Positions 24,420 through 61,775 of a DNA stretch of 64,000 nucleotides are shown piece by piece (within the stretch, counting starts at the first letter, position 1; every line of letters starts with the position of its first letter). The stretch comes from Methanobacteriota archaeon (GTDB taxonomy: Archaea > Halobacteriota > Methanomicrobia > Methanomicrobiales > Methanospirillaceae): contig JAKPPB010000038.1 in NCBI GenBank assembly GCA_029547605.1, forward strand, positions 1 through 64,000. Reading direction: 5' to 3'. The notes below the pieces were generated by a model, which ran no database searches, was not told the origin of the DNA, and was given only the letters and a program-made list of their open reading frames with translations. A program made the position numbers and the translations under genes.

Positions 24420-24519
24420 TGTGGGATACCAGGAGATTGTCGCAGGGATGAAAAAAGGTTCAGGAAAAAAAGGACACCGGGGCCGTAGTAAGCCCACCTC
24501 TCACCCGATTTTTGTCTTC

Positions 24520-24640
24520 CCGTTGTTTTATGCGGGGAACCGAACAGGTGTCATTCTCTCGTACGCCGATTCAGTCATTGAACCGGCACAGGAACACTCA
24601 ATCGGGGGTAGCGGCGTGGCATCCCATGCGGGCGAGTGCG
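24520..24640 (-). repeat. degraded copy (E) of the 187-bp dispersed element
   Basis: Bases 24520-24640 align with the distal half of the element found at 33.9, 56.7 and 61.6 kb: GCGGGGAACCGAACAGGTGT, GATTCAGTCATTGAACCG and CGGGGGTAGCGGCGTGGCATC are recognisably related. The hairpin half is gone or too diverged to see. Orientation is that of the 33.9-kb copy. Confidence 0.45.
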
Positions 24641-24713
24641 GGCAAAGAGCTCCTCCAAAATTTACATGGTTCGTCAATCCTGCCTGTAACACCTCGCACA
24701 CAGTCAATTGTCT

Positions 24714-31467: not shown

Positions 31468-31978
31468 AACAGGGCTTTACGAGGGGTATTAATAAACCTA
31501 TGGGTTATTATTGCCTGATATGGCTCAAATGGACTTATAAAAAGCCTCCCCATAGTTTTGTGAGGGGATGAATCGAGGTTGTTGACCAGAATTCGTATTC
31601 AGTCAATGAACCGCCACCGGGACACCACTTCGGGGGCAGCAGCTGCATCAGATATATTTCATATAGGGACGTGGGAGCGTCGAAAATACCGGGTGATACC
31701 GCACTCCAGTCTGTGGCAAGGTCGCTTGCAGAATGCGAAACCGATAATATCTCCCGTTTCGCAGTCAGCTGCAATGATGCGCATGTCCTGGTCCTTACGA
31801 AATGGGGGTATATTCCCGTGCAAATGGGAGAGACTGGCCAGGATCGATCCCATGGCGGCGGCTCACTGGTCTGTTGGTGAGGAAGACACGAGTAGAGAGC
31901 GTTGCAGTCTCATGGGTGAGGGGAAAAAAGGCGTTTACTTCCCGGATGATCCACTCTCCCGGGCCTTTCATGGCACTA
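31468..31978. other. intergenic region with repeat fragment, no clear gene
   Basis: Contains a partial dispersed element at 31546-31650 and a perfect inverted repeat TGCGAAAC/GTTTCGCA at 31734-31741 and 31756-31763. Several short frames are open across 31660-31980 on both strands, but none resembles a protein I know or has good starting signals. Confidence 0.4.
31546..31650 (-). repeat. partial copy (D) of the 187-bp dispersed element
   Basis: GTTTTGTGAGGGGATGAATCGAGGTTGTT, ATTCAGTCAATGAACCGCC and TTCGGGGGCAGCAGCTGCATC follow the same order as in the copy at 33881-34068 but stop before the hairpin half. Same orientation as that copy. Confidence 0.6.
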
Positions 31979-33679: not shown

Positions 33680-33880
33680 CCTGCACCTCATTTTGTTCAA
33701 GACAGATAATATATCGATCCAATTATGACATGCATTCCGGGAGGGCTATGGCCGTACGTATCTCATAGTTCGTCGTGGGCCGTTCAACAGTTGGAAATCA
33801 ATCCTGGACATGGATTGGTTGTATCTTTACCACTTCCGTACCGTATTCATGCTCCTGAAACACACATACCACATATTCGC

Positions 33881-34068
33881 CTCCTCACTGTTTTGTGTGG
33901 GGAGATTGAATCGAGGTTGTTTTCTGTATATCAATCCAGTCACTGAACCGCCGCCGGGGTGTTTTTCGGGGGCGTCGGCGTGCATCGGATGTGGGGGTGT
34001 GGGGGCTGATAGCCCCTACAATATGTGTCCGGTTCACCAATCCTATCCACACCAGATAACGAAGAGCC
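33881..34068 (-). repeat. 187-bp dispersed element, copy C
   Basis: Reverse complement of the elements at 56.7 and 61.6 kb, with about 80-85 percent identity by eye. It runs from GGCTCTTCG (34068 side) through GGATTGGTGAACCGGACACA, the hairpin TGTAGGGGC...GCCCCCACA, and GATTCAATCTCCCCACAC to GAGGAG. It lies between the GNAT pseudogene and the HNH-like gene. Confidence 0.8.
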
Positions 34069-34074
34069 ATATAT

Positions 34075-34446
34075 TCAGACCCCAAACCGGAAACGAGAGG
34101 AGCATGCGTCCTTGTAAGCCTCTTCAAGGTCTGTATCCGGCGGCGTATAAGGTCGGGGGACGTATGCCAGGATCTCCCTCATTCTCATACGGACCTCAGC
34201 TGGTCGCTGATCGACCAGCATTGACTGGTCATGGAATGCAGTGCCATACTGGTGCAGATCGTGGTGGCACAGGAAACAGAGAACAAGCAGAAAAGATTCG
34301 AGATCGACAGGGGGGCGTTCAGATGCCTGCTCCTCATCGATAAGGGTATGGATCTCCAGGTCTTCCAGTGCTGTCTGCTTCCCGCATAGCTCGCATCGAA
34401 GGCCTGCGGTAAGCTTGATCTTCTTCGCCTTGATCGCATGGGTCAT
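34075..34446 (-). CDS. HNH-endonuclease-like zinc protein
   Basis: A 123-residue basic protein. LRCELCGKQ gives a first CxxC, LEIHTLID supplies the E/H of the core, and VLCFLCHHDLHQYG gives the second CxxC followed by histidines. This is the layout of HNH nucleases of the zinc-finger type, though the middle Asn is not evident. Small size fits stand-alone HNH proteins of unknown role. Its stop lies only seven bases from the edge of repeat copy C. Confidence 0.6.
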   Translation of the reverse strand: MTHAIKAKKIKLTAGLRCELCGKQTALEDLEIHTLIDEEQASERPPVDLESFLLVLCFLCHHDLHQYGTAFHDQSMLVDQRPAEVRMRMREILAYVPRPYTPPDTDLEEAYKDACSSRFRFGV

Positions 34447-56671: not shown

Positions 56672-56712
56672 AACCCGCCAAGGGGAGAAAGAGGCTATCT
56701 CCTCATTTTTCG

Positions 56713-56898
56713 GCTCTTCGCTATCTGGTGTGGGCAGGATTGGTGAACCGGACACATATTGTGGGGGCTATCCGCCCCCACACCCCCACATGCGATGCAC
56801 GCCGCTGCCCCCGATGGACGCCCCGGCGGCGGTTCAGTGTCTGGATTGATATCCAGATAACAACCTTGATTCAGTCTCCCCACACCACACAGGGAGGA
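56713..56898 (+). repeat. 187-bp dispersed element, copy A
   Basis: About 186 bp from GGCTCTTCG to GGGAGGA. It contains near-terminal inverted repeats GGTGTGGGCAGGAT (from 56728) and the complement of GGTGTGGGGAGACT (ending 56890), and a strong internal hairpin TGTGGGGGC-TATCC-GCCCCCACA at 56761-56783. The first about 75 bases are identical to copy B. It abuts the 3' end of the Cache lipoprotein pseudogene. Confidence 0.85.
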
Positions 56899-56902
56899 GA
56901 CC

Positions 56903-57416
56903 CTTTTTATGATGCTGCCCCTTCAACCGGACCGGTATAGATGCCGGAACCGGGCCACCAGCTCCCATCGATCTTCACGCCATACCCGGGTTTTGCCTCA
57001 AGCGTCCGGTTGTGCATGGGACTGATGCAATAAAACCGGTAACAGCCACTCCCGCTCCTGAAAATGTCCCCATCTCCCTGATAAATATCCCGGCTACACC
57101 CTCATCCAGCCGGTTCTTTCCGACCACTTCGGGATTGATCAGATGTGTAAGGTTGGCCATATTGGAATCGCAGGCTTAGATGTTTAGCTCGCCCTGGATG
57201 AACGAGCCGTTTGGGTCGTTGAACTCTGCAAGGGCCTTCTCCTTGCCGTGGATGTGGACATAATCGACCGCCTGCTCTACGAAGGCCACAAGTGTCTCAT
57301 TTGAGGCAGAGATCACCTCCGTCCGGGAGCCCCGGGACCACCGGTTTCATATGGTAATTACTATCAGGGATGTGGATGCACCCGCCCAGAAGGAGAAAAA
57401 AGCCAAGCGTCATCAT
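56903..57416 (-). pseudogene. Cache-domain lipoprotein, frameshifted and with in-frame TAA
   Basis: From ATG 57416 the minus strand reads a short signal peptide with lipobox (TLGFFLLLGGC). The frame changes near 57320, then reads SNETLVAFVEQAVDYVHIHG, KALAEFNDPNGSF and GELNI, a TAA at 57176-57178, then INPEVVGKNRLDEGVAGIFIREM. A second frame change near 57050 is needed to continue with YRFYCISPMHNRTLE and PGYGVKIDGSWWPGSGIYTG. This is the order of a single-Cache sensor domain (FNDPNGSF, HPxNPExVGKN, HNRTLEPK, WWxGSGIY). The gene is dead; the end lies five bases from repeat copy A. Confidence 0.75.
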
Positions 57417-58959: not shown

Positions 58960-60975
58960 TCACATCCCTTTGATCACCAGCACCGTGATGTCGTCGAACT
59001 GGGGCATGTCCCCTGAAAATTCCCGGAGTTCCGAGAGGATCCGGTCGAGTATCTGCGGGGCAGAGAGGTGGACGTGCTCCCGTATGATCGCATGAAGCCG
59101 TGCCTCGCCAAAGAACTGCTCCTGCGTATTCATCGAATCCGTGACCCCGTCCGTATACATGACGACCACGTCACCGGTCCCGATCGCCACGGTGCGGGAG
59201 GAATACTCCTGGTTTGCATCTGCGCCGAGCGCGATGCCGGTGGGGAGGAGCTCTTCCAGTGTCCCGTCCTGCGTGCGGATCACGACAGGGGGGTTGTGGC
59301 CGGCATTCACATAGGTGAGGGTGCGGTCCGATTCCGAGAGCCTCCCGAAGAAGAGGGTGACGAACATGCCGGACTTTGAGTCCTCGGTGATAATGTTGTT
59401 TGCATCCCTGATGGCCTGTGCCGGGTCGCGGTGCCAGAGGGCGTTGACCCGGACGACGATCCGGGAGAGCGCCATGAAGAGCGCGGCGGGCACGCCTTTC
59501 CCGGACACGTCTGCGACGAGGAGGCCGAGCGTTCCCTTCGACAGGGCGATGATCTCGAACGGGATCACGTCAAAAAAGTCGCCGCCGACCTCCTTTGCCA
59601 TCACGGTCCGTGCAGCGATATCAAATCCCCTGATCTGGGGAATTACGTCGGGCATGAAGCTCTTCTGGATATCCGCGGCGATCTGGAGCTCGGCGTTCGA
59701 GCGGGCAAGCCTCCCCTCCATCTCGCGGCGCTCGGTGATGTCCCGGATTGTCTCGATGGCGCCGGTGACATTTCCCTGCGGGTCGTAGAGGGGGCTTGCC
59801 TTCGCCCAGAAATACCTCCCTGTCCGGCCTGCAAGGCTCGGGATGAAGGTGTCCACGACAAGTGTATCCCCTTCACGCCTGACATGGGTATAGAGACGCT
59901 CCAGTTCAGCCTCGGGCATCAGGACAAGGTTTGCGAGCATCGGCCTGCGTTCCTGGTAGAACGGCAGCGAGTACTCGTAGTCTCCCTTCCCGATCATGGA
60001 CTCTGCGGGAATACCGGTCAGCTCCTCCATTGCCCGGTTCCAGGTGATGACGACGCCGTCCTTGTCGATGGCAAGGGTTGCATCCGGCAGGAAACTGATA
60101 ATATCCGCGAGGCTCCGGCGGGACCGGACGATCTCCTGCTCGTCTCGCTTCCGGTCGGTGATGTCCCGGATTGTCTCGATGGCGCCGGTGACATTTCCCT
60201 TCTCATCGTAGAGCGGGCTCGCCTTCGCCCAGAAATAGGCCCCTCCAGGCCGGAAGTCCGGGATGAAGATGTCGACGATGAGGGTATCGCCCCTCCGCTC
60301 GACAAAGTCATACCGCTTCTCGATCTCTTCCCCGGGCATGAAGACGAGATTGGCAAGCATCGGCCGCCGCTCCTTGTAGAACGGGAGGGCATACTCGTAG
60401 TCGCCCTTGCCAACCATGTTGCCTGCAGGAACGCCAGTCAACTCCTCCATCGCCCGGTTCCAGGCGATGACCGTGCCCTCACGGTCGATGACCAGCGTTG
60501 CGTCAGGGAGGAAATCGATGATCTCGGCCATCTCCCGGGTTGTCTTTGCCATCTCGTGCTCGGCCCGTTTCCGGTCAGTGATATCACGGATCGTCTCGAT
60601 GGCGCCGATGATGCTGCCATCCGCACCATAGAGGGGACTTGCCTTGGCCCAGAGGTATGCACCACCGGGCCGGAAGTCCGGGATGAAGATGTCCACAACC
60701 AGCGTGTCACCCGTCCGCACCACGGTATCGTATTTTTTCTCAACCTCGGCGCCGGGCATGAAGATGAGGTTGGCGAGGATGGGGCGCCTTTGGCCGTAAA
60801 AAGGGAGGGCATACTCGTAGTCGCCCTTCCCGAGCATTTCTCCCGCAGGAACGCCGGTCAGCTCCTCCATCGCCCGGTTCCAGGCAATCACCCTTTCCCC
60901 GCGGTCGATGACCAGCGTTGCATCCGGCAAAAAGTCAATGATCTCTGTCTGGAAAGAGCGGCCTGGGGACTCCAT
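58960..60975 (-). CDS. triple-PAS sensor with SpoIIE-type PP2C phosphatase domain
   Basis: About 671 residues. Three PAS domains of about 139 residues each (starts IIDFLPDATLVID, again IIDFLPDATLVID, then IISFLPDATLAID) are almost identical to one another, each with AWNRAMEELTG, GKGDYEYALPFY and GAIETIRDITDRK. They are followed by a PP2C domain: EVGGDFFDV near 463, VADVSGKGVPAALFMA, NAGHNPP, GDVVVMYTDGVTDS and FDDITVLVIK. Such proteins dephosphorylate anti-anti-sigma-like or other partners in response to a signal. ATG at 60975 is preferred to TTG 61029. Cytosolic. Confidence 0.88.
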   Translation of the reverse strand: MESPGRSFQTEIIDFLPDATLVIDRGERVIAWNRAMEELTGVPAGEMLGKGDYEYALPFYGQRRPILANLIFMPGAEVEKKYDTVVRTGDTLVVDIFIPDFRPGGAYLWAKASPLYGADGSIIGAIETIRDITDRKRAEHEMAKTTREMAEIIDFLPDATLVIDREGTVIAWNRAMEELTGVPAGNMVGKGDYEYALPFYKERRPMLANLVFMPGEEIEKRYDFVERRGDTLIVDIFIPDFRPGGAYFWAKASPLYDEKGNVTGAIETIRDITDRKRDEQEIVRSRRSLADIISFLPDATLAIDKDGVVITWNRAMEELTGIPAESMIGKGDYEYSLPFYQERRPMLANLVLMPEAELERLYTHVRREGDTLVVDTFIPSLAGRTGRYFWAKASPLYDPQGNVTGAIETIRDITERREMEGRLARSNAELQIAADIQKSFMPDVIPQIRGFDIAARTVMAKEVGGDFFDVIPFEIIALSKGTLGLLVADVSGKGVPAALFMALSRIVVRVNALWHRDPAQAIRDANNIITEDSKSGMFVTLFFGRLSESDRTLTYVNAGHNPPVVIRTQDGTLEELLPTGIALGADANQEYSSRTVAIGTGDVVVMYTDGVTDSMNTQEQFFGEARLHAIIREHVHLSAPQILDRILSELREFSGDMPQFDDITVLVIKGM

Positions 60976-61029
60976 CTCATGCACCTCGCAGGATGTGTGC
61001 GGTGATAGGGCATCAAGGTTCGGAATCAA

Positions 61030-61569
61030 GGGAGACGAAAAATGGTAGTTCCTGTGATTACCCGCAGTCTCATTTCCCCCCCCGGCATCCTCCGATCCTG
61101 AATCCGGCTCTCCCTCGATTCGAAAATTCGGAGAAAGGGAGAAATTTTCCGGGTTCCTGCCTCAATCCCCCTTCCCATCCGGATAATCCCAGGCCATGCA
61201 CCTCATCGTTCCTGCCGGCGGAGGGTCTTCGCGAGCGTGATAGTCTTTCCCATGCTATTCGTTCCGCTTGACTTGGGTGAGTGCGATCGTCATGGTATCG
61301 GTACCTGTTGAGCGTCACCTTGAACCAGGGGGGTGTGGGGGTGGAATCCTTTTGCTGCAGAATCATGCGGGAGATACCTGGAACTGGCGATACCGCTGGG
61401 ACAGCGCTCATTTTCAGGCAGCCCGTCATGAAAGGGATGAGGGATGAGAACGTAAAGCCACCAGGCTCCCTGACAATAAGGCAGGGGATATGCGACAGGA
61501 GATCCTCATTATGTATCTTGTGAACTGCTCCAGACACACGGTATAATTGGATGAACAGGAAAAAAACGA
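61030..61569. other. 540-base region without a firm gene
   Basis: Open frames on the minus strand between 61070 and 61570 do not look like known proteins. A short minus-strand frame starting MGKTITLAKTLRRQER at about 61256 has a protein-like beginning but ends after 16 codons and may be the leftover of a gene start. Repeat copy B follows. Confidence 0.3.
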
Positions 61570-61756
61570 GGCTCTTCGCTATCTGGTGTGGGCAGGATTG
61601 GTGAACCGGACACATATTGTGGGGGCTATCCGCCCCCACACCCGCACATGGGATGCACGCCGCCGCCCCCGAAGGATGCCCCATCGGCGCTTCAGGGACT
61701 GAATTAATATACAGATAACAACCTTGATTCAGTCTCCCCACACAACACAGGGAGGA
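61570..61756 (+). repeat. 187-bp dispersed element, copy B
   Basis: 187 bp from GGCTCTTCG to GGGAGGA, with the hairpin TGTGGGGGC-TATCC-GCCCCCACA at 61618-61640. The first half is identical to copy A, while the second half differs at scattered positions. On the opposite strand a frame of about 57 codons with CxxC and CPVHQSCPHQ stays open in copies A, B and C. Confidence 0.85.
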
Positions 61757-61775
61757 GGCAAAAAAGAAGAAATGG

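Follow-up and report, generated by a model that had tools for sequence, protein, structure and literature searches.

The 190-bp element dispersed in the window (the whole stretch of 64,000 nucleotides that was analyzed) is very probably a MITE that arose as an internal deletion derivative of an insertion sequence (IS) of the ISL3 family. This assignment follows from ends that match those of ISL3 elements, exact 8-bp duplications, and a direct match between a MITE and an IS in the sister genome G009. The hairpin core of the element, about 55 nt long, is a separate, family-restricted dispersed palindrome.

The first-pass annotation had described a dispersed element of 187 bp. The element stands, and its unit was refined to 190 bp with shifted borders. 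The copies in the window are as follows.

56712-56901, plus strand: MITE copy A, 190 bp; flanks CATTTTTC (56704-56711) and CCTTTTTA (56902-56909), a decayed 8-bp duplication (6/8)
61570-61759, plus strand: MITE copy B, 190 bp; flanks AAAAACGA (61562-61569) and AAAAAAGA (61760-61767), 7/8
33879-34068, minus strand: MITE copy C, 190 bp; flanks ACATATTC (33871-33878) and ATATATTC (34069-34076), 7/8; empty site in G011
about 31544-31760, minus strand: decayed MITE copy D, right half recognizable, left (5') half disrupted
about 24514-24712, minus strand: MITE copy E, full length but decayed; identity to the consensus 132/190

Copies A, B, and C are each identical to the consensus at 175-178 of 190 positions. 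Over 188 nt, the identity was 93% between A and B and 89% between A and C, so the likeness reaches over the entire length, beyond the hairpin half in which it had originally been noted, and these copies are not a product of chance. Copies D and E, listed earlier as degraded, have an identity of approximately 69%, and the hairpin model recovered both of them, with E values of 3e-7 and 6e-4, respectively. The search of the genome, a draft assembly of 2.26 Mb in 128 contigs, retrieved about 27 MITE copies among the matches listed, with E values down to 1e-80 and copy A itself excluded, and further copies were present in the genomes of sister species. The mean pairwise identity of the copies in the window's own genome was 83% and their identity to the consensus was 90%, indicating that the family is not recent. 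The MITE is non-coding, and the open reading frames (ORFs) that cross its copies look spurious.

Multiple alignment of the copies revealed sharp ends formed by imperfect terminal inverted repeats (TIRs) of about 30 bp (GGCTCTTCGCTATCTGGTGTGGG / GCCTCCTCGCTGTTTTGTGTGGG), the left end being GGCTCTTCGCTATCTGGTGTGGGTAGGATT in the aligned copies. In copy A they lie at the following positions.

56712-56741, plus strand: left TIR, GGCTCTTCGCTATCTGGTGTGGGCAGGATT
56872-56901, minus strand: right TIR, consensus read inward GCCTCCTCGCTGTTTTGTGTGGGGAGACTG

The inverted terminal sequences noted at first are thus present, but they extend beyond the GGTGTGGG core given for them and start with GGCTCTTCGC / GCCTCCTCGC. 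The pattern of the left TIR occurred 24 times in the genome, as compared to 0 occurrences of the reversed control. For a lone TIR match on contig C38, no element was recognizable by eye in the surrounding stretch.

The copies are bordered by target-site duplications of a fixed length of 8 bp. Among the copies of the window's own genome and of the sister genomes for which both ends were found, the identity between left and right flanks rose over precisely eight positions and at no others, reaching 6.13/8 as compared to 3.07 when flanks were permuted among copies, a procedure that controls for A/T richness (z = 9.6). With the 24 copies of the own genome alone, z was 7.5, and none of 5,000 permutations reached a value as high; the duplicated octamers in this genome were 87% A/T. 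Furthermore, the flanks of copy C are continuous in the sister genome G011 (contig C1), which carries the empty site CCACCTATTC|AGACCCC, whereas the filled site in the window reads CCACATATTC-[190 bp]-ATATATTC|AGACCCC. Copy C thus inserted cleanly and duplicated 8 bp of its target. Of the two readings that the first-pass annotation had offered, a MITE-like non-autonomous element and a mobile structured RNA, the former is borne out by the copies outside the window, the sharp ends, the duplications, and the empty site.

Copy A begins 41 bp past a flavodoxin-like ORF, the end of copy B is 17 bp short of the 3' end of a MerR-like gene, and copy C lies a few base pairs from the end of an ORF, the gene names having been read by eye from the sequences. 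Most copies are intergenic, and 35 of 51 neighboring gene ends were 3' ends (P = 0.011, using a rough ORF rule). This distribution would speak for the repeats being regulatory or structural sequences of the host, such as terminators or sites for nucleoid proteins, and not mobile DNA. This explanation is extremely unlikely, and for the 190-bp unit it is refuted by the empty site and the target duplications; the ends common to ISL3 elements equally speak against it. The lean to gene 3' ends probably arises because A/T tracts lie there and insertions are tolerated. Another repeat in the window, at 59729-60978, consists of three tandem units of 420 nt that are 63-70% identical over 300 nt and lie inside a single ORF of 689 amino acids; the ORF is sensor-like, and the repeats appear to be duplications of PAS-type domains.

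The ISL3 transposase domain PF01610 was detected in 20 of 232 genomes of the order. The ISL3 elements of the order have the ends GGCTCYTCGCT...GTGGGTA and are bordered by exact 8-bp duplications (CAAAAAGT, TTATTTAT, and GTTTTTTA). The two ends of the element in G037 deviate from those of the MITE at 2 of 20 and 4 of 20 positions, the minimum in 200 shuffles being 5 mismatches. In G037 and G009, the transposases combine PF01610 with a zinc ribbon (PF14690) and a helix-turn-helix domain (PF13542), and their genes lie between the matching ends. In G009, a sister Methanolinea genome, the left 110 nt of a MITE of like build correspond to the left end of a transposase-bearing ISL3 element at 107 of 110 positions, and its last 33 nt to an ISL3 right end at 32 of 33. 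The right end of the MITE in G005 retains sequence coding for the C terminus of the transposase (AMIHIRCGQLEFNLPT). The sequences of the G009 and G005 MITEs thus identify them as internal deletions of ISL3 elements, and we infer the same origin for the family in the window from its architecture and ends, which are as in these MITEs. Three observations weigh against this parentage: for the right third of the MITE in the window, a counterpart in a full ISL3 element was not recognized; the direct match between MITE and IS comes from a sister species and a different subfamily; and the own genome yielded no ISL3 transposase or remnant.

A search for a PF01610 transposase in the window's own 128-contig draft genome found none, and a search of the same genome for ISL3 remnants, using as query N-terminal and C-terminal pieces of Methanolinea transposases joined from two sister genomes, was likewise negative. 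The transposase with the same ends that the first-pass annotation had proposed to look for is therefore present in full-length elements of relatives but was not found in the own genome. The MITE family accordingly looks stranded there, although in a draft of this kind a multicopy ISL3 element may have escaped assembly.

Between its termini, the MITE contains two hairpins.

56760-56782, plus strand: hairpin 1, TGTGGGGGC-TATCC-GCCCCCACA
56790-56847, plus strand: hairpin-2 module, the dispersed palindrome, GCGATNNACG-CCGCCGCCCCCGAAGGNCGCCCCGGCGGCGG-TTCAGTGACT, with its stem at 56802-56832

Hairpin 1 is the strong stem noted earlier, and the stem arms of hairpin 2 are CCGCCGCC...GGCGGCGG. Both hairpins also occur in ISL3 elements (G009, G010, and G062). 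There they follow the left end and precede the start codon of the transposase, forming the leader of genes whose products have Zn_ribbon_ISL3 and HTH_Tnp_ISL3 domains. The hairpin region is therefore the ISL3 5' leader and no hallmark of the MITE. By analogy with other IS elements, hairpins in this position would most likely shield the transposase gene from being switched on by read-through transcription.

The hairpin-2 module extends far beyond this element. A covariance model of hairpin 2 and its flanks, applied to 231 genomes of the order, had matches in 76, of which nearly all belong to one family, and many genomes contained at least 24 copies. A pattern search for hairpin 2 in 84,980 genomes returned 47 matching stretches, all of them from Methanomicrobiales or from unresolved Euryarchaeota, with Methanolinea and Methanoregulaceae making up the majority. 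The module occurs both with and without transposon ends. Elements of the IS256 family (PF00872) carry it in their 3' region, 25 nt after the stop codon of the transposase gene (L148 near 7652, minus strand; L124, L129, L145, and L165 near 116; L152 near 287); it lies upstream of a right end, ...CCTTACACTACC, that four copies share down to the last base. The module is also carried by another MITE family, which is about 299 bp long and GGGTATAGTG-ended (ends GGGTATAGTGTCATTG) and has flanking A/T repeats of 7-8 bp (L252-L259, L131, L144, and L150; in the own genome L295, C119:75491). Other hairpin-2 copies were seen close to an IS21 istB gene and to an rve-type transposase gene (L130 near 159; L160 near 1523).

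Solo copies of the module are found in other genera of the family and have sharp borders at about GCGATNNACG and WTCARTGACT. In G024, the module forms short tandem arrays with a spacing of about 165-280 nt (L229, L230, L231, and L233), in which it alternates with another GC-rich repeat. The small size of the palindrome, its high copy number, and the sharp, short borders of the solo copies are reminiscent of REP and REPIN sequences of bacteria, which are likewise short, GC-rich, high-copy palindromes. One could accordingly suppose that a Y1 (RAYT/IS200-IS605) transposase spread the module as a REP-like element, but this is very unlikely: a Y1 transposase was present in none of the Methanolinea genomes tested and in 5 of 108 genomes of the family, all of one genus, and module-rich genomes such as G024, G019, and G007 are without it. 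In addition, the copies in the window move as a transposon that duplicates 8 bp. Spread of the module by viruses was also considered and set aside, as no hairpin-2 match was obtained in IMG/VR.

Two chimeras were identified whose left half derives from the 299-bp MITE and whose right half derives from the ISL3 MITE, the joint being the hairpin (L294 in the own genome, C55:45602; L135 near 1890 in G004), which suggests recombination at the common palindrome. A further candidate, in L187, was set aside because its right half scored low.

Alternatively, the conserved unit may be the hairpin module itself, which would then function in the Methanoregulaceae as a structured RNA or as a structure of single-stranded DNA (ssDNA), travel as a passenger of transposons, and exist solo as well. 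We regard this as possible but rather unlikely. The family-restricted abundance of the module and its occurrence with and without transposon ends are in its favor, as are the compensatory changes observed at 3 pairs of hairpin 1 across related modules. For the whole module, 20 cells were changed on both sides, as compared to 7.0 ± 2.2 in shuffled alignments and at most 9 when slid, the shuffles ignoring relatedness. Hairpin 2, however, hardly varies and thus provides no covariation.

Related evidence comes from several relatives in which the ISL3 MITE measures 246-292 nt and has an extra domain inside hairpin 2 (L297-L316 and L317-L346). This domain forms two covarying hairpins, with 29 cells as compared to 7.5 ± 2.2 in shuffles that ignore relatedness, in an alignment (A5) that was fitted to the structure. 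It was found in 14 of 108 genomes of the family, with at least 30 copies in G004, G032, and G063, and was absent from the window's genome. The extra domain had no Rfam match; the Rfam covariance models gave no match in the window at the gathering score, and permissive searches with copy A and the long MITE forms returned nothing convincing. Because the controls ignore relatedness and the larger alignment is structure fitted, the covariation is suggestive of function and is no proof of it. For the 190-bp unit, moreover, a functional RNA or ssDNA structure does not compete with the MITE, since its ends and duplications are made by a transposon.

Taking the observations on the module together, it is conceivable, though we hold it to be improbable, that the hairpin is an exchangeable structured cassette of the Methanoregulaceae. 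Such a cassette would reside in three or more transposon types that are unrelated to one another (ISL3 leaders and MITEs, the IS256 3' region, and the GGGTATAGTG-ended MITE), persist solo at high copy number, and act as a recombination junction, and its long form would be an undescribed structured RNA or ssDNA that is functional for the host or the transposon.

For the 190-bp MITE, the sequences point to the following course of events. An ISL3 DDE transposase would have acted in trans, recognizing both MITE ends and carrying the DNA to A/T tracts. The central hairpins are inherited from the parental leader, which separates the left end from the start codon of the transposase. With the transposase now apparently gone from the window's genome, or unassembled, the family would be decaying, as its mean pairwise identity suggests.

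ISL3-derived MITEs are a known kind of element in archaea, since ISMac21 of Methanosarcina acetivorans has been reported as an ISL3 MITE of 179 bp with 22-bp inverted repeats, 7-bp direct repeats, and 6 copies (Kamoun et al. 2013, PMC3852290). By description, ISMac21 and the element studied here are both archaeal, non-coding, attributed to ISL3, and bounded by inverted ends, and they are similar in length (179 and 190 bp) and in the size of their repeats (7 and 8 bp). They differ in that the present element belongs to another host order, has about 27 listed copies, had no partner transposase detected in its genome, and contains the Methanoregulaceae hairpin module. The ISL3 elements of the Methanomicrobiales (e.g., that of 1,351 bp in G037; L064, L072, and L074) resemble it in their ends and 8-bp A/T-rich duplications but encode a DDE transposase of 411 amino acids, whereas the element in the window is geneless.

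These data add a well-documented, apparently stranded ISL3 MITE family for a little-studied group of archaea. The less ordinary part is the hairpin cassette that unrelated transposons and solo sites have in common within one archaeal family, together with the chimeras joined at it. This cassette offers a natural case for studying how regulatory or recombination modules come to be shared among transposons and whether functional structured RNA may be carried by MITEs of archaea.
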